Source: Aestuariivirga litoralis
GTDB lineage: Bacteria > Pseudomonadota > Alphaproteobacteria > Rhizobiales > Aestuariivirgaceae
Length of the DNA: 64,000 nt
NCBI RefSeq assembly: GCF_003234965.1
Contig: NZ_QKVK01000001.1
Location: 682,001 to 746,000 of the forward strand
Direction: 5' to 3'
The notes under the pieces: generated by a model
What the model was told of the DNA's origin: nothing
Seen by the model: the letters and a program-made list of their open reading frames with translations, nothing else
The model's database searches: none
Made by a program: the position numbers and the translations under genes
In this document: positions 28,825 to 42,380 of the stretch, in pieces
Position numbering within the stretch: the stretch's first letter is position 1
How the letters are laid out: each line of letters starts with the position of its first letter

Positions 28825-29439
28825 ATGGCGCATGACGGACATCACCACGATCACGAGGAAGGCTCCGAACTTTCGCCCATCGCGCTGCGGGTGAAGGCAC
28901 TCGAATCGCTGCTGGTCGAGAAGGGTTACGTCGATCCCCGGGCGCTCGACGTGCTGATCGACACCTACGAGACCAAGATCGGTCCGCGCAACGGCGCGCG
29001 CGTGGTGGCGAAGGCCTGGACCGACCCCGCCTTTGCCGACTGGCTGAAGCGCGATGCCACCGCGGCCATCGCATCGCTCGGCTATACCGGACGGCAGGGC
29101 GAGCACATGGTGGCGCTGTTCAACACGCCCGACACCCACAACATGGTCGTCTGCACGCTCTGCTCCTGCTACCCGTGGCCGGTGCTGGGCTTGCCGCCGG
29201 TCTGGTACAAGTCGATGCCCTATCGCTCGCGTGCCGTGATCGAGCCGCGCGAAGTGCTGAAGGAATTCGGCGTCGACCTGCCGGACGCCAAGCAGGTCCA
29301 GGTGTGGGACTCCACGGCGGAGCTTCGCTACCTGGTGATCCCCGAGCGGCCCGCAGGCACCGACGGCTGGAGCGAGGAGCAGCTGGCGGAGATCGTCACC
29401 CGCAATGCCATGATCGGCACCGGCCTCGTCACCGCATGA
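28825..29439 (+). CDS. nthA: Nitrile hydratase alpha subunit (cobalt type)
   Basis: Nitrile hydratase hydrates nitriles to amides. The alpha subunit carries the metal. This 204-residue protein has the metal-binding claw [17 protein letters not shown] with Cys110, Thr111, Cys113, Ser114 and Cys115. Thr in CTLCSC marks the cobalt form (iron enzymes have Ser). In known enzymes Cys113 and Cys115 equivalents are oxidised to sulfinic and sulfenic acid. The N-terminus is His-rich (HDGHHHDH), perhaps helping metal loading. ATG 28825 has GAGG 8 bases upstream. The TGA overlaps the ATG of the first beta gene. Confidence 0.96.
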
Positions 29440-30092
29440 ACGGACCGCATGACATGGGCGGCTTCACCGGCTTCGGGCCGGTGCTGCATGAGGCCGACGA
29501 ACCGGTCTGGCATGACGACTGGGAGCCGCGGGCCTTCGCGCTGGTGCTCGCCATGGGCATGACGGGCTCGTGGAACATCGACGAGGCCCGCCATGCGCGC
29601 GAGCGCCTGCCGGCGCTGCAATACTGGCGGTCGAGCTATTACGAGATGCGCCATTATGCACTGGTCCTGCAGCTGATCGAGCTTGGCCTCGTGTCCGCGA
29701 TGGAGGACGAGCAGGGCCGCATGGCCGTTCCGCCGAAGCCGGTGAAGCGTGTGGCGAGGGCGGAGATGATCCCCGCCATTCTCGCGTCAGGCGGGCCGGC
29801 CGACCGGCCGAGCAACCGCCCGCAGGGCTTCGCCATCGGTGAGCGGGTGCGCGCGCGGACGATGAACCCTAGGGGCCACACCCGGCTGCCGCGCTATGCG
29901 CGGGGAAAGACCGGAGAGGTCGTGGCCGTGCATGGTACGCATGTATTCCCGGATTCGAATGCCCATGGTGGTGGCGAAGACCCGCACTGGCTCTACACCG
30001 TGCGCTTCACCGGCGCCGAGCTCTGGGGGAAGGACAGCCGGGATGCCGTCTGCATCGATCTGTGGGAGCCCTATCTGGAGAAAGCCCCGTGA
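29436..30092 (+). CDS. nthB: Nitrile hydratase beta subunit, copy 1
   Basis: The 218-residue protein begins [16 protein letters not shown], the standard beta-subunit start, and ends in the beta-barrel domain [13 protein letters not shown] then LYTVRF and IDLWEPYLE. The two arginines that in known enzymes hydrogen-bond the oxidised metal cysteines are present: Arg52 in [10 protein letters not shown] and Arg156 in RYARG. Full length and intact residues argue that it is a working subunit. Its ATG overlaps the alpha TGA, and its TGA overlaps the GTG of a second beta gene. Confidence 0.93.
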
Positions 30093-30739
30093 ACGGCGCG
30101 CATGACTGCGGCGGCATGATGGGCTTCGGCCCGGTGGTGGCGGAGGCGAATGAGCCCGTCTTCCATGAAGCCTGGGAAGCGCGCATGTTCGCACTGATGT
30201 CGGCGGTTGGCGACGTCGGCGGCTGGACGCTGGACGAAGACCGCGCCGCCTGCGAGGCGATGGAGCCCGGCCACTACATCACATCGAGCTATTACGAGCA
30301 CTGGCTCAGCGGTCTCGAACGGCTGTTGCAGACGCATGGGCTGGCCAGTGCGGAGGAAATCGCCTCTTGCATAGCGTCCGCGCCATCAAGGCCGGTGACA
30401 CCCACGGCGGCGGACGCCGTGTGGCCTGCCGTCACCGCTGCCGGGAGCTATGAACGCCGGACCGGGGGCCAGCCGCTGTTCAGGCCGGGGGACCGCGTGC
30501 GCACGCGGCACCTGAACCCCGCGCACCACACGCGGCTGCCGCGCTACCTGCGTGGCCATGAGGGCGAGATCCTCGCCTGCCACGGCGCCCACGTCTTTCC
30601 CGATTCCAACAGCCGCGGCCTCGGCGAAGACCCCCGCTTTCTCTACACCGTGCGCTTCAGGGCTTCCGACATCTGGGGCAATGGCGCGCCGGACCTGATC
30701 CATGCCGACCTGTGGGAGCCCTATCTTGAAGCTTGCTGA
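30089..30739 (+). CDS. Nitrile hydratase beta subunit paralog, copy 2
   Basis: This is a second complete beta subunit of 216 residues ([16 protein letters not shown] start, HGAHVFPDSNSRG, LYTVRF and ADLWEPYLE end). It also keeps Arg52 (LDEDRAACE) and Arg155 (RYLRG). It differs clearly from copy 1 in the middle (a Cys/Ala-rich stretch at about residues 90-125) and has extra cysteines at 7, 55, 94, 164 and 216, so it is an old duplication rather than a recent one. The start is GTG at 30089, overlapping the copy-1 stop (GTGA). It may form an alternative alpha-beta' enzyme or a mixed one. It is too long to be a thiocyanate-hydrolase small subunit. Confidence 0.88.
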   Translation: MNGAHDCGGMMGFGPVVAEANEPVFHEAWEARMFALMSAVGDVGGWTLDEDRAACEAMEPGHYITSSYYEHWLSGLERLLQTHGLASAEEIASCIASAPSRPVTPTAADAVWPAVTAAGSYERRTGGQPLFRPGDRVRTRHLNPAHHTRLPRYLRGHEGEILACHGAHVFPDSNSRGLGEDPRFLYTVRFRASDIWGNGAPDLIHADLWEPYLEAC

Positions 30740-31052
30740 GTCGGAACGCCTGCCGAAGGATGCCGATGGCCCGGTCTTCGCCGAACCCTGGGAGGCGCAG
30801 GCCTTCGCCATGGCGGTAAAGCTGAACGAGGCCGGCGTCTTCGCCTGGAGCGAATGGGCGGAGGCCCTGGGATCGGAATTGAGGGCCTTTCCGCAGCGTC
30901 CCTATTACGAAAGCTGGCTCGCCGCGCTGGAGAAGCTGGTCGAGGCCAAGGGCGTGATGTCGGAGGTCGAGCGGCTGGCCCGGGTCGACGCCTGGGACCG
31001 CGCGGCCAGGGCCACGCCACACGGCCAGCCGATCGAGCTCAGCCGAGGTTGA
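30726..31052 (+). CDS. Nitrile hydratase accessory (activator) protein
   Basis: The 108-residue protein resembles the N-terminal half of the beta subunit (FAEPWEAQAFAMAVKLNEAG, SEWAEALGSEL, RPYYESWLAALEKLVEAKG). This is typical of the small activators (P14K/NhlE-like) that deliver cobalt to and exchange with the alpha subunit. Start choice: TTG at 30726 has GGGAG 7 bases upstream and lies within the last codons of beta copy 2. An ATG at 30702 is the alternative and would add 8 residues. The end overlaps the 3' end of ccdA on the other strand by 14 bp. Confidence 0.85.
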   Translation: MKLAESERLPKDADGPVFAEPWEAQAFAMAVKLNEAGVFAWSEWAEALGSELRAFPQRPYYESWLAALEKLVEAKGVMSEVERLARVDAWDRAARATPHGQPIELSRG

Positions 31053-31812
31053 GCAGCACGGGGAAGCGCTCGATCAGCCAGTAGGACACGGCCTGCACGC
31101 CACCGGTGATGAACATGATGCCGGAGATGACGAGCAAGGCGCCGGCGATTTTCTCCACCAGGCCGAGGTGCTTCTTGAAGCCCGCAAAGAACCCCATGAA
31201 GGTGCCGATGCCCGCCGCCGCCAGCAGGAAGGGAATGCCAAGGCCCAGCGAATAGACGGCGAGCAGCCCCGCCCCCTTCATCACATCCTGTTCGCTCGCG
31301 GCGATGGTGAGGATGGTGCCCAGCACGGGGCCGATGCAGGGGGTCCAGCCGAAGGCGAAGGCCAGCCCGATGAGATAGGCGCCGAACAGGCCTCCTGGAT
31401 GGGCCTTGTGCTGGTAACGCACCTCGCGCGCGATCCAGAACATGCGGAAGACCCCCAGGAAGTGCAGGCCCATGGCGATGATGATGAGGCCGGCCACGCT
31501 GGTGATCGGGTTGAAGGCGAAGCCGAACAGCGTCACCTGGCGCGCCAGTTCGGACCGCAACAGGCTGCCCAGCCACGAGGCGCTGGCCCCCAGCAGCACG
31601 AACACGGTGGAGAAGCCCAGCACGAACAGCAGCGCGGCGAGCATCACCTGGCGCCGCTCCTCCCGCGGCTTCATCCTGTTGTCGACCAGGTCCTCGAGCG
31701 AGGTGCCGGTGATGAAGCACAGATAGGGCGGCACCAGCGGCAGCACGCAGGGGCTCAAGAAACTGATGGTGCCGGCGAACAGCGCGGCACCGATGGACAC
31801 GTCGAGGCTCAT
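31039..31812 (-). CDS. ccdA: Cytochrome c biogenesis protein CcdA
   Basis: The 257-residue polytopic membrane protein has six predicted helices and the two conserved redox cysteines in LSPCVLPLVPPY and GWTPCIGPVLG. CcdA/DsbD-type proteins carry reducing power from thioredoxin across the membrane to periplasmic thiol pathways such as cytochrome c maturation. The ATG at 31812 (MSLDVSIG) is preferred to 31848 because the longer form adds only a basic, non-conserved stretch. No thioredoxin-like partner is next to it. It is divergent from znuA. Confidence 0.92.
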   Translation of the reverse strand: MSLDVSIGAALFAGTISFLSPCVLPLVPPYLCFITGTSLEDLVDNRMKPREERRQVMLAALLFVLGFSTVFVLLGASASWLGSLLRSELARQVTLFGFAFNPITSVAGLIIIAMGLHFLGVFRMFWIAREVRYQHKAHPGGLFGAYLIGLAFAFGWTPCIGPVLGTILTIAASEQDVMKGAGLLAVYSLGLGIPFLLAAAGIGTFMGFFAGFKKHLGLVEKIAGALLVISGIMFITGGVQAVSYWLIERFPVLLNLG

Positions 31813-31887
31813 TCCCCCTCCTCTGGCAGGTTGGCGGCGGAATCGCAATTCGCTGCGGGGCCGCAGGCGATCACCTGTGCGTCAGGC

Positions 31888-31928
31888 TTGACGGGCCGGA
31901 CGGCGACCGGTATGTTATATTATAACAT
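31888..31928 (+). promoter_or_regulatory. znuA promoter with overlapping Zur box
   Basis: TTGACG (31888-31893) and TATGTT (31911-31916) form a 17-bp-spaced promoter. The palindrome ATGTTATATTATAACAT (31912-31928; 8-bp perfect arms around one base) covers the -10. It matches the Zur operator known from rhizobia, so zinc-loaded Zur should block transcription of znuA and what follows. Confidence 0.85.
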
Positions 31929-31946
31929 TACATTCGAGAGGTCCTG

Positions 31947-32903
31947 ATGCGCCGCCTGTCCGCCCTGCTCGCCGCCACCCTGCTGACCGCTGCACCAGGA
32001 CTGGCCGCTCCCAAGGTTGTGGCCTCGGTCGTTCCGCTTCATTCCATCGTGGCCTCGGTCATGGGCGATGCGGGTACGCCGGAGCTCCTGCTGCAGGGCA
32101 GCATGTCGGAACACCGGGCTGTCTTCACCCCGGCCCAGATCGCCATGCTGGGCAATGCCGACCTGGTGTTCATCGTGGGCCACGGGCTGGAAGCCAAGCT
32201 GGCCCAGATCAGCGGGTCGGATGCGGTGAATGGCAAGCGCTTCGTGGAACTTTCCGATGCGCCCGGTGTCAGGACCCTGCCCGTCCGCCAGGGCGGCGCA
32301 TGGGAAGCCCACGATCACGCGCATGAGGAGGATGGCGGCACGGAGGCGGAAGGCCACGACCACGATCATGCCGCCGAGGGCGTCCTCGCCTTCGATCCCC
32401 ATGTCTGGCTCGACCCGGACAATGCCAAGGCCATGGCGCGGCAGGTGGCGGACGACCTGTCGAAGGCCGATCCGGCCAATGCCGCCGCCTATGCCGCCAA
32501 CGCCCAGGCCTTCGCCACCCGGATCGACACGGCTTCGGCGGGGATTGCCGCCGAGCTGGCACCGGTGAAGGACAAGCCCTTCATCGTCTTTCATGATGCC
32601 TACCAGTATTTCGAGAAGCACTTCGGCCTGTCGGGAGCGGGCTCCATTTCGGACGTGTCCGCCCAGGCCCCGTCGGCGGAGCGCCTGGCCGAGGTTCGCA
32701 ACAAGATCATTGCGGTGAAGGCCGCCTGCGTGTTCCGCGAACCGCAGTTCGACGGCAAGGTCGTGGCCGCCGTGACCGAGGGGACCGGCGCCCGGGAAGG
32801 TGTGCTCGATCCGCTGGGGGCGGGCCTGACGCCCGGCCCCGATGCCTACCAGCAGCTCCTCGCCAATCTGTCCACCGCCCTGAAGGACTGCCTCGGCAGC
32901 TAG
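31947..32903 (+). CDS. znuA: Zinc ABC transporter substrate-binding protein ZnuA
   Basis: The 318-residue periplasmic protein has a signal peptide (LSALLAATLLTAAPGLAAP), the cluster-A-I fold (VVASVVPLHSIVASVMGD, SEHRAVFTPAQI, FDPHVWLDPDNAKAMARQV, FIVFHDAYQYFEKHFGL) and a His/Asp/Glu-rich loop (AHDHAHEED, then GHDHDHA) typical of zinc-specific members. A Zur box covers its promoter. The permease and ATPase genes znuB and znuC are not adjacent. Instead a DUF1007 gene and a NicO-type transporter follow 63 bp downstream, so the protein must use a transporter coded elsewhere. Confidence 0.95.
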   Translation: MRRLSALLAATLLTAAPGLAAPKVVASVVPLHSIVASVMGDAGTPELLLQGSMSEHRAVFTPAQIAMLGNADLVFIVGHGLEAKLAQISGSDAVNGKRFVELSDAPGVRTLPVRQGGAWEAHDHAHEEDGGTEAEGHDHDHAAEGVLAFDPHVWLDPDNAKAMARQVADDLSKADPANAAAYAANAQAFATRIDTASAGIAAELAPVKDKPFIVFHDAYQYFEKHFGLSGAGSISDVSAQAPSAERLAEVRNKIIAVKAACVFREPQFDGKVVAAVTEGTGAREGVLDPLGAGLTPGPDAYQQLLANLSTALKDCLGS

Positions 32904-32966
32904 ACGGGCCTTCACGATTTTGCCGCATTGGCCCATCATTCCTCGCCTGATTCAGAAGGATGGACA

Positions 32967-33635
32967 ATGCGAACTGCACGCCGGGCGGCCTTGGCCGCCC
33001 TTGCCTTTGCTTCCGCGGCCGCGGCGACACCTGCCTCGGCTCACCCCCACGTGTGGATCCAGATGCAGTCCGGGGTGGTGTTCAATGACCAGGGCCAGAT
33101 CGCGGCCGTGAAACTCGCCTGGACCTTCGATGATGGCTACGCCAGCCTGGCGCTGGACGGCCTCGACAAGAACGGCAACGGCACCTACGAGCCGGAGGAG
33201 CTCGAGCCGCTGACCCGCGAGAACCTCGAGTCCCTGAAGGACTACGACTTCTTCACCCACGTCCGGCTGAACGGCAAGGCGCAGGCCCTGGGCGCGCCGA
33301 CGGCGGCGGGCCAGAGTTACACCGGCGGCAAGCTGCAGCTTCATTTCGAGTTGCCGCTGTCCACCCCGGTGGACCCCACCAGGGGCGAGTTCGTGCTGAA
33401 GGTCTATGACCCCGAATTCTACATCGCCTTCGACTATGCCGGCACCACCCCGGTGACGGTGAGCGGCAACATGCCCCCGGCCTGCAAGCCGGTGCTCAAG
33501 CCGCTGCCGACCGACGCCGAGCTCGAGCAGACCCGCGCCATGCTCTCCACCAAGGGGCCGGACTGGAAGCCCGACGAGGAAGAGGATTTCGGCGCCCTCT
33601 TCGCCCAGCCCATGACCATTCAATGCCAGGCCTGA
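32967..33635 (+). CDS. DUF1007 family periplasmic protein
   Basis: The 222-residue protein has a signal peptide (AALAALAFASAAAATPASA) followed by HPHVWIQMQSGVVFND, the usual mature start of DUF1007 proteins with two His close together that could bind metal. Other landmarks are KLAWTFDDGYASL, TRENLESLKDYDFFTHV and the closing YDPEFYIAFDY segment. DUF1007 genes are commonly found next to NicO/RcnA-like transporters, as here, and a role in metal handling in the periplasm is inferred. The next gene overlaps by 13 bp. Downstream position suggests control by the Zur box in front of znuA. Confidence 0.88.
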   Translation: MRTARRAALAALAFASAAAATPASAHPHVWIQMQSGVVFNDQGQIAAVKLAWTFDDGYASLALDGLDKNGNGTYEPEELEPLTRENLESLKDYDFFTHVRLNGKAQALGAPTAAGQSYTGGKLQLHFELPLSTPVDPTRGEFVLKVYDPEFYIAFDYAGTTPVTVSGNMPPACKPVLKPLPTDAELEQTRAMLSTKGPDWKPDEEEDFGALFAQPMTIQCQA

Positions 33636-34753
33636 TCAGGCGGATCGCCCTGGGCGTCGCGGCCCTGCTGATCCTGCTCCTCGCGGCGGCGCCGCAACTC
33701 GCCGCGCAAACCGCGGGCACCACCGCGCAACAGGCCCAGCCCGAGGTGAAGATCGACCGCCGCAAGCTGCTGGTCCCGCCACGCAATGCCGATGGCACGA
33801 TCGAGGTCACCCCCTTTCTGGAAGACCCGGTGCTGTGGGCGCGCGACGAGCAGCAGAACTTCTATCGCAGGATGTCGGCCACGCTGAAGGCCATGCGCGG
33901 CCCCGATGCCTGGGCCTCCGGCTGGATGCTGATGCTGCTGAGCTTCGCCTATGGCATTTTCCATGCCGCAGGCCCGGGCCATGGCAAGGCGGTGATCTCC
34001 ACCTGGCTGCTCGCCACCGAAAGCGAACTGAAGCGCGGCGTGCTGATCTCCTTCATGAGCGCCATCATCCAGGCCCTGACCGCCATCGTGCTGGTGAGCG
34101 TGCTGTTCCTCGTGGTGGCGAGCGTCGGCTCCACCGCGCGTGACGTGGCCGGTGTGCTGGAGAGTGCCAGCTATGCGCTGATCGGGCTGCTCGGGCTTTA
34201 TCTCATCTGGACGGCCCTGCGGCTCTTCGCGGCACGGCGTGCCCTGTCCGCACCGGTTGCTGCCAGTGCCGGGGTCAGCACGCGCCAGTCGATCGCACTC
34301 TCGGACTTCGCCAGTTTCGAGCCGAAGCGCAGCGCTGCCGCGGTGCCACATGTGCATGGCCCCGATTGCGGCTGCGGCCACGCCCACCTGCCGGAGGCGA
34401 GCGACCTCACGGGCGAGTTTTCCTTCGCACGCGCCTTATCGCTTGCCTTTGCGGTGGGCATCAGGCCCTGCACCGGCGCCATTCTCGTGCTGGTCTTCGC
34501 CAATGGCATCGGGCTCTATTGGGCGGGCATTGCCTCCACCTTCGCCATGGCGGTGGGGACCTTCATCACCGTCTCGGTCATCGCCGCCATTGCCGTCTAT
34601 GGCAAGAAGCTGGCCGCCCGGCTGATGCGCGGCAATTCCCGACTGCTCGACTGGGCCGGCATCGGCTTGCGCTTTGCCGGAGGAACCGTGATAGCCTTTC
34701 TGGGAACGATTCTGTTCCTCGGCTCGTTGGGCTCTTCCAACGCCATGATGTGA
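33623..34753 (+). CDS. NicO/RcnA-family nickel-cobalt (metal) transporter
   Basis: The 376-residue membrane protein has an N-terminal signal/anchor, a first metal-transport motif FHAAGPGHGKAVIST in a transmembrane helix, and about six membrane segments. A His/Cys-rich cytoplasmic or periplasmic loop (VPHVHGPDCGCGHAHLPEA, near residues 240-258) is followed by a second helical bundle with GIRPCTGAILVLVFA. These are features of the NicO/RcnA family of Ni/Co carriers. Position behind a Zur-controlled znuA and a DUF1007 gene suggests zinc-linked use, so the true metal is open. It overlaps DUF1007 by 13 bp. tspO follows after 6 bp. Confidence 0.88.
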   Translation: MPGLIRRIALGVAALLILLLAAAPQLAAQTAGTTAQQAQPEVKIDRRKLLVPPRNADGTIEVTPFLEDPVLWARDEQQNFYRRMSATLKAMRGPDAWASGWMLMLLSFAYGIFHAAGPGHGKAVISTWLLATESELKRGVLISFMSAIIQALTAIVLVSVLFLVVASVGSTARDVAGVLESASYALIGLLGLYLIWTALRLFAARRALSAPVAASAGVSTRQSIALSDFASFEPKRSAAAVPHVHGPDCGCGHAHLPEASDLTGEFSFARALSLAFAVGIRPCTGAILVLVFANGIGLYWAGIASTFAMAVGTFITVSVIAAIAVYGKKLAARLMRGNSRLLDWAGIGLRFAGGTVIAFLGTILFLGSLGSSNAMM

Positions 34754-35297: not shown

Positions 35298-35567
35298 ATG
35301 GCAAGAGTGTTCTTCACCGCCAACCTGCGCCGCCACGTCGACTGCACCAGCATGGAGGCGGAGGGAGAGACTGTGCGTGCGGTTCTCGCGCGCGTCTTTG
35401 CGGTGCAGGACCGGCTCGGCACCTATGTCCTCGACGACCAGGGTGCACTCCGGAAACACATGACCATCCTCGTCGATGGCCAGCGCATCCGCGACCTCGA
35501 AGCACTCTCCGATGCCGTCGGTCCCCACAGTGAAGTCTGGGTGATGCAGGCCCTTTCGGGAGGATGA
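35298..35567 (+). CDS. Small ubiquitin-like protein (MoaD/ThiS-type) with C-terminal Gly-Gly
   Basis: This 89-residue protein ends in ALSGG, the di-glycine tail that E1-like enzymes adenylate in MoaD/ThiS/ubiquitin-like proteins. The beta-grasp pattern is visible (ARVFFTANLRRHV, a Val/Leu-rich helix VRAVLARVFAV, HMTILVDGQRIRDL, SEVWVMQALSGG). Start ATG 35298 follows the basic non-conserved leader. No moaE, thiG, or E1-type gene is near. The next gene, 3 bp away, encodes a BNR beta-propeller, a pairing seen for uncharacterised proteins. It may be a sulfur carrier or a protein modifier. The function is unknown. Confidence 0.82.
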   Translation: MARVFFTANLRRHVDCTSMEAEGETVRAVLARVFAVQDRLGTYVLDDQGALRKHMTILVDGQRIRDLEALSDAVGPHSEVWVMQALSGG

Positions 35568-35570
35568 TCG

Positions 35571-36674
35571 ATGGCAGATCGCATGATGGTGTCGACCCGC
35601 AAGGGCCTGTTCGACGTGGAGCGCGGGCCCTCGGGCTGGGAGGTGGCGCAAGGCGCATTCCTTGGCGACAACGTGACACTCGCGCTGCATGACGCGCGTG
35701 ACGGCACGGATTATGCCGCGCTGAACCACGGTCATTTCGGCGTGAAGCTGCACCGCCGTGACAGGGGCGGGGCGTGGCAGGAAATCGCCGCCCCCGCCTA
35801 TCCGCCCAAACCCGAGGGCCTCGACGACCGTGACGGCTGGGGCAAGCCGGTGAAGTGGACGACGCAGATGATCTGGTCACTCGAAGCGGGCGGTGCCGAC
35901 GAGCCCGGCACGCTGTGGGCCGGCACCATGCCGGGCGGCCTGTTCCGCAGCCGCGACAGGGGCGAGACATGGGAGATGATCCGCCCCCTGTGGGACATGC
36001 CGGAGCGCAACATGTGGCTGGGCGGCGGTGCGGATATTCCCGGCATCCATTCGATCTGCGTCGACCCGCGGTCGTCGGAAACCGTGCGCGTCGCCATTTC
36101 CTGCGGCGGCGTGTGGGTGACCCATGACGGCGGCGAAAGCTGGAAGCAATCGGCGCATGGCATGCATTTCGACGACGGCCCTCCTGAGATGGTGAACAAC
36201 CCCGACACCCAGGATCCGCACATGATGGTGCAGTGCCCCGCCGCACCCGAGCGCTTCTGGGTGCAGCACCATTGCGGCATCTGGCGCTCCTCGGACGATG
36301 CGAAGAGCTGGCAGCGGGTGCACGCCGAACCTTCGAGCTTTGGCTTCGGCGTGGTGGTGCATCCGAAGGACCCCGACACCGCCTGGTTCGTGCCCGGCAT
36401 CAAGGACGAGAAGCGCTACCCCGTGGATGGCAAGCTGGTGGTGACGCGCACGCGTGACGGCGGCAAGAGCTTCGACGTCCTGTCGAGGGGCCTGCCGCAG
36501 AACCACGCCTACGACATCGTCTTCCGCCACGCGCTGGCGGGCGACGACACGGGCGAGCGGCTGGCCTTCGGCTCCACCACCGGGAACCTGTGGGTGAGCG
36601 AGGACCAGGGGGAGTCATGGGAGACGGTGAGCACCTCGCTGCCGCCGGTCCATGCGGTGCGGTTCGCGAGCTGA
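35571..36674 (+). CDS. BNR/Asp-box beta-propeller (exo-sialidase-like fold) protein
   Basis: The 367-residue protein without a signal peptide has five Asp-box-type repeats: SRDRGETW, THDGGESW, SSDDAKSW, TRDGGKSF and SEDQGESW. They are spread over about residues 125-360, as in the sortilin/VPS10 and sialidase-like propellers. The N-terminus MMVSTRKGLFDVER is also typical of this group, sometimes labelled exo-alpha-sialidase, but no sialidase catalytic Arg triad or Tyr/Glu pair could be identified. It begins 3 bp after the ubiquitin-like gene, suggesting one transcript and a shared role. The function is unknown. Confidence 0.82.
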   Translation: MADRMMVSTRKGLFDVERGPSGWEVAQGAFLGDNVTLALHDARDGTDYAALNHGHFGVKLHRRDRGGAWQEIAAPAYPPKPEGLDDRDGWGKPVKWTTQMIWSLEAGGADEPGTLWAGTMPGGLFRSRDRGETWEMIRPLWDMPERNMWLGGGADIPGIHSICVDPRSSETVRVAISCGGVWVTHDGGESWKQSAHGMHFDDGPPEMVNNPDTQDPHMMVQCPAAPERFWVQHHCGIWRSSDDAKSWQRVHAEPSSFGFGVVVHPKDPDTAWFVPGIKDEKRYPVDGKLVVTRTRDGGKSFDVLSRGLPQNHAYDIVFRHALAGDDTGERLAFGSTTGNLWVSEDQGESWETVSTSLPPVHAVRFAS

Positions 36675-36697
36675 CTGCCGTCATGCCCCATTTACCT

Positions 36698-36773
36698 CAT
36701 CATGCGCGGGCTTGACCCGCGCATCCTTTTGCCGGCTCACAAAGGATGGGCGGGACAAGCCCGGCCATGATGA
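36698..36773. repeat. Palindromic intergenic repeat, family A (copy A6)
   Basis: The left stem-loop is GCGCGGGCTTGACCCGCGC, the right is GGCGGGACAAGCCCGGCC, with CATCATG and CATGATG ends. It lies between the convergent BNR gene and dnaE2. Confidence 0.83.
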
Positions 36774-36802
36774 GAGTGATCAGCAGGCTGCCGGGTCTAC
36801 CC

Positions 36803-39800
36803 TCAATGAAAATCCCGGCTCTTGGGGATCACCCGCGCCTGGCGCGGGTGTCGTGCCGGGGGCTGTTGCTGGTGCGGGTCGGGTCCCGGCCTTGCCACCT
36901 CGTCGGCCCGCGCCAGCGGGTTGCGCAGGAGTGCCCCCTCCTCTGTCAGCAGCGCCAGCCAGTCCGAATGATCCTCGATGCTGCTCGCCACCACGTGGAT
37001 GATGTCGCCCGTGCGCTGCACGCGGCCCCTGATGAGCATCAGACGGGCGCCCATCACCACCGCGCGGTGCGTTTCCAGCACCTGCGGCCAGATCACCGCA
37101 TTGCACACCGAGAACTCGTCCTCGAGCGTGAGGAAGACGACACCCTTGGCCGAGCCCGGCCGCTGCCGCACCAGCACCACGCCCGCCACGGTGACGGCGG
37201 CGCCATTCCTCAGCGTCTTGAGCTTCGCCGTGTCCGTCACCCTGCGCTCGTTGCAGAGCCGGCGGAGGAACTGCATCGGATGCGCCTTGAGCGACAGCTT
37301 CAGCGTCTGGTAATCATTCACCACATGCTCGGAAAGCGGCATATCGGGAAGCGACACGTGCCCCTCCTCCCCCTGCTCGCGCGTGTCGGCGAAGGCGAAG
37401 AGCGGCAGCGCCTTGGCCTTGGTCAGGGCCTTCACCTCCCACAGCGCCGCACGCCGGTCGAGGCCGAGCGAGCGGAAACAGTCGGCGGCGGCGAGCTTCT
37501 CCAACCCCGCTACGGGCACGCCGAAGCCATGAAGAGCGGCGATGGTCATGGGCTTCTTCTGTAAACGGTATTGCAGCAGCAGGGCTGCATCCTGCGCCTT
37601 CAGCCCGTCGACTTCGCGCAGGCCCAGCCGCATCGCGGCCCGTTCGCCCCGTGAGGGTGCTTCCATGATCGAATCCCAGCGCGAATGGTTGATATCCACC
37701 GGCCGCACCTCCACCCCATGCTCGCGCGCATCGCGCACGATCTGGGCCGGGGCGTAGAAGCCCATGGGCTGGGAGTTCAGGAGTGCCGCCGCGAAGACCT
37801 CCGGATAGTGATGCTTGAGCCATGACGAGACATAGACGAGATGCGCGAAGCTGGCGGCATGGCTTTCGGGAAAGCCATATTCGCCGAATCCCTTGATCTG
37901 GTTGAAGCAGCGCGCCGCGAAAGCGGCATCATAGCCACGCTCCACCATGCGGCTCACCATCTTCTGCTCCAAGCGCCCGATGGTGCCGCGCCGCCGGAAG
38001 GTGGCCATGGCCTTGCGCAATTCATTGAGCTCGCCCGCGGTGAATTCGGCGGCGACCATGGCGAGCTTCATGGCCTGTTCCTGGAACAGCGGCACGCCCT
38101 TGGTGCGGCCCAGCACTTGGCGCAGTTCATCAGGCGGGCCGAAATCGGGATGCGGGGCCGGATAGTCCTCCGCCTCAAGCCCGTCGCGCCGCCGCAAATA
38201 GGGATGCACCATGTCGCCCTGGATGGGGCCGGGGCGCACGATCGCCACCTCGATGACGAGATCGTAGAAGCAGCGCGGTTTCAGCCGTGGCAGCATGTTC
38301 ATCTGCGCACGGCTCTCGACCTGGAAGACGCCCACCGAATCCGCCTTGCACAGCATGTCGTAGACGGCCCCGTCCTCGCGCGGCAGGCTGGCGAGCGAGT
38401 ATTTGAGGCCGTACCACGCCTCCATCATCTCGAAGCTCTTCTGGATGCAGGTGAGCATGCCGAGTGCCAGCACGTCGACCTTGAGAATCCCCAGCGTGTC
38501 GATATCGTCCTTGTCCCATTCGATGAAGGTGCGATCCTCCATCGCGGCATTGCCGATGGGCACCGTCTCGTCGAGGCGGCCCTTGGTCAGCACGAAACCG
38601 CCAACATGCTGCGAGAGGTGGCGCGGGAAGCCCTGGATGTCGTCGGCGAGCTCGATCACTTTCGCCAGCAGCGGGTCGTAGGGGTCGAGCCCTGCCTCCT
38701 GAAGCCGGCCATTGTGCATCTCTTCGCGCATCTGGCCCCAGACGATGCCGGCGAGCGTGGCGGTGACGTCCTCCGACAGGCCCATCACCTTGCCCACCTC
38801 GCGCATGGCGGAGCGGCCGCGATAGGTGATCACCGTGGCGGCGAGCCCCGCCCGCTCGCGGCCATAGCGCTGGTAGATGTACTGGATCACCTGCTCGCGC
38901 CGCTCATGCTCGAAGTCGACGTCGATGTCGGGAGGTTCCTTGCGCTCCTCCGAGATGAAGCGCTCGAACAGCAGCTCGATCTGGTTGGGGTCGACCGCCG
39001 TGATCCCGATGACATAACAGACAGTGGAATTGGCGGCCGACCCCCGCCCCTGACAGAGGATCGGGGGATCCTGCGTCCGGGCGTAATGGACGATGTCGTG
39101 CACGGTGAGGAAATAGGGCGCATAGTTGAGTTTCTCGATGAGCACGAGTTCCTTCGCGATGTTCTCCTTCACCTTTTGGGGAATGCCCTCCGGGTAGCGC
39201 TCCTTGGCGCCCTCCCAGGCGAGATGCGTCAGGTGCTGCTGCGGGGTGGAGCCCTGCGGGATCGGCTCTTCCGGATACTCGTATTTCAGCTCCTCCAGCG
39301 AGAAGCGGCAGGCCTTGGCGATGGCCAGCGTGTTGGCGATGGCAGACGGATGGTCGCGGAACAGGCGCGCCATCTCGTCCGGCGTTTTCAGGTGACGCTC
39401 GGCATTGGCTTCGAGCAGGTAACCCGCTTCGGCGATTGTGACGCCCTCGCGGATGGCCGTCACCACGTCCTGCAGCACGCGGCGGGAGGCATGGTGATAG
39501 AGCACGTCATTGGTGGCCAAGAGGCCCGTCTGGTTCTTCTGCGCGAGGTCTGCCAGCCGGTTGATGCGCTCGCGGTCATCACCGCGATGATGGTGGCTGA
39601 CCGCGAGGTAAAGCGGCGCCTTGAGGCGCTTGCGGATCTCGGAGAGATGATCGGCGCCATCAGACACCAGCGCGAAGACCATGCCCGGGGCATGGGCATA
39701 GACGTCATCGAGGGTGATCAGGCACTGGCCCTTCTCCGCCCGGCGCTGTCCGAGGCTGATGAGCCGGCAGAGCGCACCATAGGCCTGTCGGTTGGTGGGC

Positions 39801-40039
39801 CAGGCGAGAAGCGAGAGGCCGGGCTCGGCGAGGTCGAGCCTTGTGCCGACGATGAAGGGCAGCTCCGCATCCTTCGCCGCCGCATGGGCGCGCACCACGC
39901 CGGCCAGCGTGTTGCGGTCGGTCACCGCCAGCGCGGCGATGCCCAGGTGCTTCGCCTGCATGGCGATCTCCTCGGGATGGGAGGCCCCGCGCAGGAAGGA
40001 GAAATTCGTGGTACACTGCAGCTCGGCGTAGCTGGTCAT
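36803..40039 (-). CDS. dnaE2: Error-prone DNA polymerase DnaE2 (ImuC)
   Basis: The 1078-residue C-family polymerase does translesion synthesis with ImuA and ImuB in the SOS response. It starts with the PHP domain (MTSYAELQCTTNFSFLRGAS) and has the catalytic-core segments CQGRGSAANSTVCYVIGIT and PPDIDVDFEHERREQVIQYIY. It lacks the long C-terminal parts of DnaE1 and ends PKSRDFH, as DnaE2 proteins do. The ATG overlaps the TGA of imuB (TCAT on the plus strand, 40036-40039), which implies coupled translation. The frame is open 49 codons further upstream, but that is the shadow of imuB. Confidence 0.97.
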   Translation of the reverse strand: MTSYAELQCTTNFSFLRGASHPEEIAMQAKHLGIAALAVTDRNTLAGVVRAHAAAKDAELPFIVGTRLDLAEPGLSLLAWPTNRQAYGALCRLISLGQRRAEKGQCLITLDDVYAHAPGMVFALVSDGADHLSEIRKRLKAPLYLAVSHHHRGDDRERINRLADLAQKNQTGLLATNDVLYHHASRRVLQDVVTAIREGVTIAEAGYLLEANAERHLKTPDEMARLFRDHPSAIANTLAIAKACRFSLEELKYEYPEEPIPQGSTPQQHLTHLAWEGAKERYPEGIPQKVKENIAKELVLIEKLNYAPYFLTVHDIVHYARTQDPPILCQGRGSAANSTVCYVIGITAVDPNQIELLFERFISEERKEPPDIDVDFEHERREQVIQYIYQRYGRERAGLAATVITYRGRSAMREVGKVMGLSEDVTATLAGIVWGQMREEMHNGRLQEAGLDPYDPLLAKVIELADDIQGFPRHLSQHVGGFVLTKGRLDETVPIGNAAMEDRTFIEWDKDDIDTLGILKVDVLALGMLTCIQKSFEMMEAWYGLKYSLASLPREDGAVYDMLCKADSVGVFQVESRAQMNMLPRLKPRCFYDLVIEVAIVRPGPIQGDMVHPYLRRRDGLEAEDYPAPHPDFGPPDELRQVLGRTKGVPLFQEQAMKLAMVAAEFTAGELNELRKAMATFRRRGTIGRLEQKMVSRMVERGYDAAFAARCFNQIKGFGEYGFPESHAASFAHLVYVSSWLKHHYPEVFAAALLNSQPMGFYAPAQIVRDAREHGVEVRPVDINHSRWDSIMEAPSRGERAAMRLGLREVDGLKAQDAALLLQYRLQKKPMTIAALHGFGVPVAGLEKLAAADCFRSLGLDRRAALWEVKALTKAKALPLFAFADTREQGEEGHVSLPDMPLSEHVVNDYQTLKLSLKAHPMQFLRRLCNERRVTDTAKLKTLRNGAAVTVAGVVLVRQRPGSAKGVVFLTLEDEFSVCNAVIWPQVLETHRAVVMGARLMLIRGRVQRTGDIIHVVASSIEDHSDWLALLTEEGALLRNPLARADEVARPGPDPHQQQPPARHPRQARVIPKSRDFH

Positions 40040-41538
40040 GCGGATAATCCGTGTACGTACCACTTGGGCTGCTCTTCGCCCGGCTCGCCATAAAGCCCCT
40101 CGCGATAGAGCCAGTAGCGGCGGCCCTGCTCGTCCTCGATCACATAGTAGTCGCGCGGCCGCTCGCCGGCGGTGAGCCGCCACCATTCCGGTGCCACGCG
40201 TTCCGGCCCCTGCGCCTTGACGACGCGCCGGGTGACGCGCCGCCAGGTGAGGCGCATCGGCGGGCCATCCGGCACGGCGGCAACGACCTTGGCCGGTTCC
40301 GGCGCCTCGAAGATCAACAGCGGCCGCGCCGTGGGCGCAGGGCGGGTTGCCTTGGGTGGCAAGGGGCGCGCCGAGGGACGCGGCATCTCGGCGCGTTCGG
40401 GGATATGGCTTTCGACATCCTCCAGCGCCAGGAACTGCTGCTCGTGGCGGTTCAGCACGCGGTCATTGAGCTGTTCCAGCGCCAGGGTGCTGTCATCCTC
40501 GAGGAAGCCGTGCTGCTGCACCATGGCCCCCGCCGTCTCGCGCGCCTCCAGCGTCATGGCGTCGATGCCGAAGCCGGCATCCACCGTCTCGAGCTTGGGC
40601 TTCAGCACGCGCAGCATGTGGCGCGGATCATGGCTCGCCACCGAGAAGCCCGCCGGCAGGTTGGCGCGCGAGCCATCGACGCGGAACAGCTTGAGGATCA
40701 GCCGCAGCGCACCCTTGCCCGCCTTTTCGAGGTCGCGGCAGAGCTGGTTGACAATACCTTCAAGAACGATTTCCAGCCCCTCCGCATGAATGACCGGCTC
40801 CATCAGCGCGCGATGCGCCATGAAGGAGGTGGGCGGATTGAGCGGGTTCAGCGGCTCGTCACGCACGCCCATCATCTCGTCCAGCCGGATCAGCACATTC
40901 TCGCCGATGGTCTCGCCGCGGAAGCGCCGGGCCAGCGAGGCGCGGGGAATGGCAAGCAGTGCACCCACCGTCTTGAGGCCGAGGCGGCGCAGCGTCTTCG
41001 CCGCCATGCCGTCGATGCGCAGGGCCTCGACGGGAAGCGATTGCAAATCCTTCGCCTCATAGCGGGCCAGCGCCCAGGCCGCCCCCAGCGTGGCGCCCTG
41101 GCCGATCCTGACGCTGAAGCCATATTGCGCGAGGCGCTGGCGAATCTCCGCCATCATGCGCTGCTCGCCGCCGAAGAGATGGGGAACACCGGTCACGTCC
41201 AGCAGGATGCCATCGGGCTGGTCGGGCGCCACCCAGGGGCTGTAGCGCTCCATCCAGCGGCACAGCCCCAGGAGGCTGTTCATGTCCTCCTCCGGCTCAT
41301 GCGGCTCCGTCAGCAGTTCCGGCAATTGGGCACGCGCATCCGCCAGCCGCATGCCGCGCATCAGGCCGAAGCTCCTCGCGGTGGCATTGACGGCGATCAG
41401 GCGCAGGCCGGACTTGGACGTCTCAACCAGCGCGAAGGGCAGGCCCTTGGCGGGCGGCTTCCGACCCATCTTGATCCGTGAACGGATGAAGCGCTCGACG
41501 GGAAAATCCGGGAACCAGAGAGAAACAAGACTGCGCAT
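40036..41538 (-). CDS. imuB: ImuB, Y-family polymerase-like mutasome subunit
   Basis: The 500-residue protein starts MRSLVSLWFPDFPVERFIR and has the palm-and-fingers pattern of Y-family polymerases (MRLADARAQLPEL, PHLFGGEQRMMAEI, LGLKTVGALLAIPRASLARRFRG). The carboxylates needed for polymerisation are not in place (for example FPDFPVER at the usual DxD region), as in all ImuB proteins. ImuB bridges ImuA, DnaE2 and the beta clamp. A clamp-binding motif was not assigned. Start ATG 41538 is followed by the conserved N-terminus. The frame open to 41820 is the shadow of imuA. It overlaps imuA by 116 bp. Confidence 0.93.
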   Translation of the reverse strand: MRSLVSLWFPDFPVERFIRSRIKMGRKPPAKGLPFALVETSKSGLRLIAVNATARSFGLMRGMRLADARAQLPELLTEPHEPEEDMNSLLGLCRWMERYSPWVAPDQPDGILLDVTGVPHLFGGEQRMMAEIRQRLAQYGFSVRIGQGATLGAAWALARYEAKDLQSLPVEALRIDGMAAKTLRRLGLKTVGALLAIPRASLARRFRGETIGENVLIRLDEMMGVRDEPLNPLNPPTSFMAHRALMEPVIHAEGLEIVLEGIVNQLCRDLEKAGKGALRLILKLFRVDGSRANLPAGFSVASHDPRHMLRVLKPKLETVDAGFGIDAMTLEARETAGAMVQQHGFLEDDSTLALEQLNDRVLNRHEQQFLALEDVESHIPERAEMPRPSARPLPPKATRPAPTARPLLIFEAPEPAKVVAAVPDGPPMRLTWRRVTRRVVKAQGPERVAPEWWRLTAGERPRDYYVIEDEQGRRYWLYREGLYGEPGEEQPKWYVHGLSA

Positions 41539-42322
41539 GATGCCATTCCAGAATCCAGGCGCCGGGGCGGCCGCCCCTTGCGCGGGTGAGTTCGACGCTC
41601 CAGCACGGCGCACCGGGTGCGCTCGCGTCATGTGCGGGGCTGAGCGAGGGCACGGCCGCCGCCGTCCAGCGCGTGTGGCTGGCAGTTGCCGCACAGTCCG
41701 GCTTCGCGAAGGTGAGGATCGCCGCCGACTTTCCCGCCCCTGCCGCCAGCGCCAGGCGGCGCGTGGTGGTGAGGTCGGCGTGTGCCGCCTCCGCATCGCC
41801 CAGCACGGCGGCGACGGCACCGGACTTCAGTGCCTCCTCCATGGTCCAGAGCAGGCTTGCGGGCTTCTTCAGCGTGATGGTCACGAAGCGGTGGCGCGGC
41901 AGGCCGAGGCGCTCGAGGCCATGGCCATAGAGCCGCCCATGCTCGCGTTCATGCGCGGCCAGCCGGCACCACAGCAGCGGCCGGCGTTCGCCCGCGTCAG
42001 TGAGCCGCCGGAGCGCCAGCGCCAGCGCGAAGCCCATGGCCGCCGGCTGGTCGCCATAGGCGCGGGGCGACACGTCATGGAGCCCCGCCCGCTGCAGCCC
42101 CTGTGCCGGCAGGTGCCGGTCAAGCTCGGCAAGCCCCGTCAGCCAGGGTGCCGCGCGGCTCTTCTGGTGCTCGAACTGCGCATGCCCCTGCTCCAGCCGC
42201 GCGATGTGGTCGCGCAGCGTGGCGAGCAGCCGGGAGGCGTCTCCACCACCCGGGCGAAAAGGCGTGACCGCAGCGCAAGCGTTCCCGCTCCGCGCAGCCT
42301 GATGTGCCGGTCCCATACGCAT
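41423..42322 (-). CDS. imuA: ImuA, RecA-like mutasome subunit
   Basis: The protein has about 299 residues, with the ImuA pattern LRDHIARLEQGH, LTGLAELDRHLPAQGLQRAGLHDVSP and a degenerate RecA-like core. It inhibits or modulates RecA in the SOS mutasome. The ATG at 42322 is chosen because the promoter/LexA site at 42344-42380 places the transcription start near 42345, which excludes the GTG at 42361. A later start is possible. The reading frame extends 116 bp into imuB, an unusually long overlap, ending with a non-conserved tail (FSRRALHPFTDQDG to the stop). Confidence 0.85.
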   Translation of the reverse strand: MRMGPAHQAARSGNACAAVTPFRPGGGDASRLLATLRDHIARLEQGHAQFEHQKSRAAPWLTGLAELDRHLPAQGLQRAGLHDVSPRAYGDQPAAMGFALALALRRLTDAGERRPLLWCRLAAHEREHGRLYGHGLERLGLPRHRFVTITLKKPASLLWTMEEALKSGAVAAVLGDAEAAHADLTTTRRLALAAGAGKSAAILTFAKPDCAATASHTRWTAAAVPSLSPAHDASAPGAPCWSVELTRARGGRPGAWILEWHHAQSCFSLVPGFSRRALHPFTDQDGSEAARQGPALRAG

Positions 42323-42343
42323 GACAACAACATGATCCAGATT

Positions 42344-42380
42344 GTTCCCTTTTTGTTCCACAAGCCCGGCACAGAGTCAA
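42344..42380 (-). promoter_or_regulatory. LexA box and promoter of imuA
   Basis: GTTC at 42344-42347 and GTTC at 42355-42358 with 7 bp between form the alphaproteobacterial LexA operator. On the minus strand, TTGACT (42380-42375) and AACAAA (42357-42352) are spaced 17 bp apart, so the operator covers the -10. SOS induction of the imu cassette follows. Confidence 0.85.

Follow-up and report, generated by a model that had tools for sequence, protein, structure and literature searches.

Why is a small ubiquitin-like protein (Ubl) encoded immediately in front of a β-propeller gene, and do the two proteins work together? The question arises in the window, a 64,000-nucleotide stretch of the Aestuariivirga litoralis genome, where the original prediction placed an 89-residue β-grasp protein ending in Gly-Gly 3 bp before an Asp-box propeller gene; the coordinates and the predicted fold both agree with this. 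The Ubl reading frame opens with an ATG at 35298 and closes with a TGA at 35565–35567, encoding 89 amino acids with the C-terminus VWVMQALSGG. After a gap of 3 bp (TCG), the propeller reading frame runs on the same strand from an ATG at 35571 to a stop codon at 36672–36674, encoding 367 amino acids with no apparent signal peptide by reading. The features of the locus are as follows:

35298–35567, + strand: ubiquitin-like β-grasp protein of the predicted CysO/SAMP1 type, 89 residues, ending QALSGG (reading frame, HMMs, AlphaFold, Foldseek)
35547–35564, + strand: codons for the C-terminal tail of the Ubl, Q84-A-L-S-G-G89 (tail conservation in paired Ubls)
35571–36674, + strand: predicted seven-bladed Asp-box β-propeller, 367 residues, ‘3b7f / YP_299179.1 family’ (HMM, phmmer, Foldseek)
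35598–35603, + strand: propeller R10-K11, in loop 2-3 (B-C) of blade 1 (conservation and model strand map)
36015–36050, + strand: propeller W149...H160, the loop into blade 4 and the first residues of the blade-4 inner strand (conservation and strand map)
36219–36272, + strand: propeller H217...Q232-H-H234, blade 5, top-face positions (conservation and strand map)
36414–36416, + strand: propeller R282, in loop 2-3 of blade 6 (conservation and strand map)

On the 5′ side the pair is flanked by genes for a NicO-type transporter and TspO (Pfam), and the 3′ neighbour, on the opposite strand, is by reading a dnaE2-type polymerase gene. The observation that an E1, MoaE, ThiG or a JAMM-type protease is not encoded next to the pair therefore stands. 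Further out, positions 31039–34753 of the window hold genes for a CcdA-like membrane protein, a ZnuA-like metal-binding protein, a DUF1007-like protein and the NicO transporter (NicO by Pfam), a cluster that recurs in the genus at a varying distance from the Ubl–propeller pair. Reading frames at 29175–31052 resemble, by reading, nitrile hydratase β-subunit or accessory proteins; two of them are similar to each other and carry a GFGPV...EADEPV motif, and the third is short. On the minus strand, positions 36803–42361 encode the DnaE2-type polymerase, a DNA polymerase Y family protein and an ImuA-like reading frame, by reading a likely imuA-imuB-dnaE2 mutasome cassette, and the GC-rich palindromic intergenic stretch at 36675–36800 (CATGCGCGGGCTTGACCCGCGCATC ... 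GGGACAAGCCCGGCCATGATGA) resembles a dispersed intergenic repeat. No PADLOC model for anti-phage defence was matched, and with respect to phage origin, no phage record was found.

The neighbourhood survey shows that the pairing is kept. A Ubl gene lies adjacent and on the same strand in 104 of 123 distinct propeller loci from many phyla, upstream in 95 and downstream in 9, and the median stop-to-start spacing of the paired genes is 3 nt. Among 61 related genomes, 26 encode the propeller and the identical 26 encode the Ubl; six genomes that are each at least 98% complete (G014, G015, G018, G025, G027 and G028) lack both genes jointly. A scan with one genome per species turned up at least 543 propeller relatives. 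The best 80 of these at least 543 propellers came from Pseudomonadota, Planctomycetota, Acidobacteriota, Verrucomicrobiota, Myxococcota, Actinomycetota, Armatimonadota and Chloroflexota, and paired loci were found in all eight phyla except Chloroflexota, which contributed one locus (L111) without a Ubl. Because these best 80 propellers are a biased set, an even sample of the phylum (399 genomes) is important: here a full-length propeller was encoded in 28 genomes with a Ubl beside it in 17, and 10 of the 11 propeller genomes lacking an adjacent Ubl belonged to one family (f38). Conversely, every one of the 17 Ubl matches that scored 81 bits or more in these 399 genomes adjoined a propeller. 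Pairs were also found on Burkholderia, Cupriavidus and Mitsuaria replicons and in a Pseudomonas aeruginosa plasmid record, and the Haladaptatus propeller (H30) had no adjacent Ubl annotated.

A tree of the 123 distinct propellers resolves where the pairing holds and where it lapses. The main clade has 97 members, 93 of them with the Ubl upstream; a contig end cuts it off in 2 others, and 2 (L098 and L105) lack it. Of the 26 members of the second clade, 9 have a downstream Ubl, 2 (both actinobacterial) an upstream one and 15 none, these last being f38-type, Streptomyces and other propellers. If the two genes are functionally linked, their adjacency should outlast a change in their order, as it does here, and conservation in about a hundred distinct loci excludes a chance pairing. 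Across the neighbourhoods of 80 loci no third gene was conserved between phyla; beyond the pair itself there were only lineage-level neighbours, for example the NicO/ZnuA/CcdA-like genes in the genus. Genuine stop-codon read-through from Ubl to propeller was considered and ruled out, since the loci do not consistently keep the in-frame 3-nt gap, and their stop codon may be TGA, TAG or TAA.

The Gly-Gly end is conserved in orthologues as well. Of the 104 distinct paired Ubls, 102 have [STA]GG as their very last residues, and 90 of the 95 upstream-paired Ubls end in QALSGG. The two exceptions are L078, in which the stop codon is lost and the frame continues for about 65 residues beyond Gly-Gly, and L112, which has four extra residues after it. 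A near-invariant Gly-Gly tail is as E1 chemistry needs. The original prediction of a functional link within the pair, and of a Gly-Gly end that is important, thus survived both loss of pairing and loss of the tail as tests, and the Ubl and propeller genes very likely work together.

What kind of Ubl is it? The window protein matched Pfam ThiS at 23.3 bits (cut-off 22.5), and its best NCBIfam match was SAMP1 (NF041918) at 42.9 bits, below the cut-off of 60; all 52 Ubls that were scanned matched this NCBIfam model. The AlphaFold model was a confident β-grasp (pLDDT 93.9), for which the top Foldseek matches were SAMP1, a MoaD-related protein, CysO, and CysO in its complex with BexX (TMq 0.75–0.83). 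Profiles and model together predict that the window Ubl is of the CysO/SAMP1 kind, with a propeller in place of CysM. It differs from haloarchaeal SAMP1, which it resembles by sequence model and fold, in scoring below the family cut-off, in being bacterial and in being tied to a propeller gene. The CysO–CysM system of Mycobacterium tuberculosis (with MoeZ and Mec+) is alike in having a β-grasp carrier with a Gly-Gly end and a dedicated acceptor (Foldseek 3dwg_C; PMC3227635), but there the acceptor is a PLP cysteine synthase rather than a propeller; cysM, an E1 gene and Mec+ are not encoded with the window pair, and no JAMM gene is nearby.

The next-best Ubl matches in the phylum came mostly from one family (f59). 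The four f59 loci that were read represent the CysO cysteine system: the Ubl gene is flanked by the threonine synthase gene on one side and cysM on the other, and L162 continues with a ThiF-type gene. Their tail is PAIAGG, accompanied by the motif R-x-F, whereas the window Ubl has QALSGG and R-x-H. Other relatives of the Ubl sit with ThiF or JAMM genes. As a side observation, the CysO-like Ubls of L162, L164, L168 and L173 (f59, small-genome proteobacteria) end in GGC or GGG, one residue past Gly-Gly, which would imply trimming of the tail. At a separate locus (L187, genome G075), a Ubl ending TAIAGG lies beside genes for ThiF, a YcaO-like protein, an ABC ATPase and a TfuA-like protein, and the locus reads as a biosynthetic cluster of the thiazole/thioamide type that brings its own sulfur carrier.

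The partner protein matched Sortilin-Vps10 and BNR in Pfam, and no Pfam sialidase family. Its nearest PDB chain was 3b7f (phmmer E 1e-54, residues 5–366), to which its model was also closest in fold (Foldseek TMt 0.88); no other solved structure is a close relative. The blade count of seven comes from the strand map of the model together with homology to 3b7f, and the five Asp-box repeats originally counted are a fair number; 3b7f also has five on seven blades (PMC2716378). By homology and model, the protein is best described as a single seven-bladed Asp-box propeller, homologous over its full length to the ‘3b7f / YP_299179.1 family’. Identity as an exo-α-sialidase (GH33) was rejected on the lack of a sialidase Pfam domain and on seven blades versus six, and identity as a GH74 enzyme on one propeller of 367 amino acids versus two tandem seven-bladed propellers.

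Where on the propeller could a Ubl engage? Residues K11, W149, H160, H217, Q232 and H234 are conserved in all propeller lineages, and R282 in paired and unpaired lineages alike; R10 is conserved in paired propellers (1.00 and 0.70) and less frequent among the unpaired (0.26). With the top face taken as loops 2-3 (B-C), loops 4-1 and the top ends of the inner strands, 30 of the 43 conserved non-Asp-box residues (paired and unpaired) map to this face, a modest enrichment (p about 0.02) on a strand map made by hand from the AlphaFold model. The positions lost only in unpaired propellers, in a small sample, are F125, G197, P226, T294 and partly R10. Known Asp-box glycosidases have their ligand-binding and catalytic residues in loop 2-3, on the top face, and 3b7f has a tunnel of 9 × 11 Å (PMC2716378). 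Asp-box propellers with bound peptides are also represented in the PDB, namely sortilin with neurotensin and YCF48 with a D1 peptide (PDB titles). Sortilin differs from the window propeller in having ten blades. To our knowledge, neither sortilin nor YCF48 pairs with a Ubl.

The pocket residues are kept without an adjacent Ubl in the alphaproteobacterial family f38, in two Streptomyces and in a few others. Since a minority of propeller lineages do without the Ubl, the propeller is more than an accessory to it, and survival of the pocket there argues for an activity of the propeller's own, with the Ubl as co-substrate or regulator. The propeller may therefore have a Ubl-independent activity.

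Activation of the Ubl could be supplied from elsewhere in the genome. The window genome encodes exactly one ThiF-family protein, a stand-alone MoeB, and a ThiF-family E1 was present in all 52 genomes tested. One E1 can serve several carriers, as MoeZR does for MoaD1, MoaD2 and CysO (PMC3227635), so that the missing local E1 presents no difficulty. Among the mycobacterial proteins, MoeZR activates CysO and MoeBR does not (PMC3227635), which makes sharing of MoeB by the window Ubl plausible rather than certain. Other ThiS/MoaD-type genes lie elsewhere in the window genome, one by uvrC and a pgsA-like gene and one by an oxidase-type gene, and the window Ubl is thus a separate carrier. A short MoaD-like reading frame of the same genome, ending RIQGG, lies beside a xanthine-dehydrogenase/CoxL-type subunit gene (L184, G000:C12:377351).

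We propose that the cell's shared MoeB would adenylate the C-terminal glycine of the Ubl, that this glycine would then be converted to a thiocarboxylate, that the tail would dock on the conserved top face or in the channel of the propeller, and that the sulfur would be passed there to a small-molecule substrate, the propeller standing where CysM, MoaE, ThiG or BexX stand in their own systems. The placement of the tail in the channel is suggested by the conserved top face, the loop 2-3 ligand sites, the 3b7f tunnel and the peptide-binding Asp-box propellers. The reading we adopt, with confidence slightly short of even, is that a MoeB-activated Ubl docks by its tail and that delivery of sulfur to the propeller is the most likely purpose. 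In a model of an artificial read-through fusion (TGA as Trp; pTM 0.79), both domains were confident and their relative placement was not, and mean-field DCA of 90 pairs (Neff 53) gave inter-protein couplings at the expected number, with couplings within the Ubl also noisy.

Sequence alone fits either sulfur transfer or protein modification. If the Ubl were joined to lysines in the manner of SAMP or Urm1, the propeller would be its main target or a substrate adaptor. The SAMP1 matches of all 52 scanned Ubls agree with this, as do the conjugates formed by Haloferax SAMPs (PMC2948915), but the window Ubl falls short of the SAMP1 cut-off (42.9 versus 60), the window genome has no JAMM protease above the Pfam cut-off, and the sole lysine conserved across propeller lineages is K11, part of the conserved pocket; modification is accordingly improbable. 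A different possibility dispenses with sulfur chemistry: the Ubl would be a non-covalent regulatory or assembly subunit whose tail fills the channel of the propeller in the manner of a peptide ligand. The peptide-bound sortilin and YCF48 structures provide precedents, conservation reaching from Gly-Gly back to Q84 (QALSGG) is as for a peptide ligand, and the propeller is kept without the Ubl in some lineages. Yet nothing about a pure peptide ligand would require the Gly-Gly end to persist across phyla and in both gene orders, and the closest relatives of the Ubl are sulfur carriers or modifiers, so that we regard a purely non-covalent role as unlikely, though worth keeping in view.

The remaining possibility treats the propeller as a cytoplasmic glycosidase whose gene just happens to be in one operon with that of an unrelated sulfur carrier. 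It draws on the database name ‘exo-alpha-sialidase’ and on a fold search that also returned GH74 enzymes (E about 1e-13), and it is very improbable: gene co-occurrence, tight conserved spacing and the order swap all speak against unrelated genes, no sialidase Pfam family is matched, and the single seven-bladed domain conforms neither to the six blades of GH33 nor to the tandem 7+7 of GH74. Returning to sulfur delivery, the larger proposition that the propeller represents a new class of sulfur-carrier-dependent enzyme, taking the sulfur of the Ubl thiocarboxylate in its central channel, or else forms the core of a SAMP-like conjugation system in bacteria, and that it is widespread and unrecognised, is a possibility that we advance tentatively.

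Few proteins are known to accept sulfur from a Ubl (MoaE, ThiG, CysM, TtuA, BexX and similar), and BexX is not a propeller. A propeller acceptor, if true, would be structurally new and present in many bacterial phyla and in a P. aeruginosa plasmid record. The BexX–CysO complex of 2-thiosugar biosynthesis (4n6e) offers a likeness, in that a carrier docks on an unrelated acceptor enzyme, and BexX borrows carriers of primary metabolism (PMC11323500). In the open-access literature we found no paper on the Ubl–propeller pair, mention in subscription journals being possible, and the words ‘propeller’ and ‘BNR’ are absent from a comparative study of prokaryotic Ubls (PMC1779556). The two genes are a real and widely conserved module, apparently unreported, that varies the theme of Ubl sulfur carrier and acceptor, and their products are very probably an unstudied two-protein machine; the separate ‘exo-alpha-sialidase’ and ‘MoaD/ThiS family’ annotations would become one unit.

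The pairing also bears on the crystal structure 3b7f (Reut_B4987 of Ralstonia eutropha), which shares family and fold with the window propeller. The 2009 paper describing this seven-bladed Asp-box family calls it functionally uncharacterised and nowhere mentions ubiquitin (PMC2716378). The L138 propeller (genome G386) matches 3b7f over its full length (E 3.6e-231), and directly downstream of it lies a Ubl ending QALAGG. Through this close orthologue, the orphan structure, from strain JMP134, is very probably half of a Ubl–propeller pair, which gives it a predicted binding partner. By gene order, the P. aeruginosa pair is presumably PA1355/PA1356 of PAO1. In the one paper found for either locus tag, PA1356 is mentioned in passing as promoting adhesion and biofilm formation (PMC11538994), a remark on which we place no weight.
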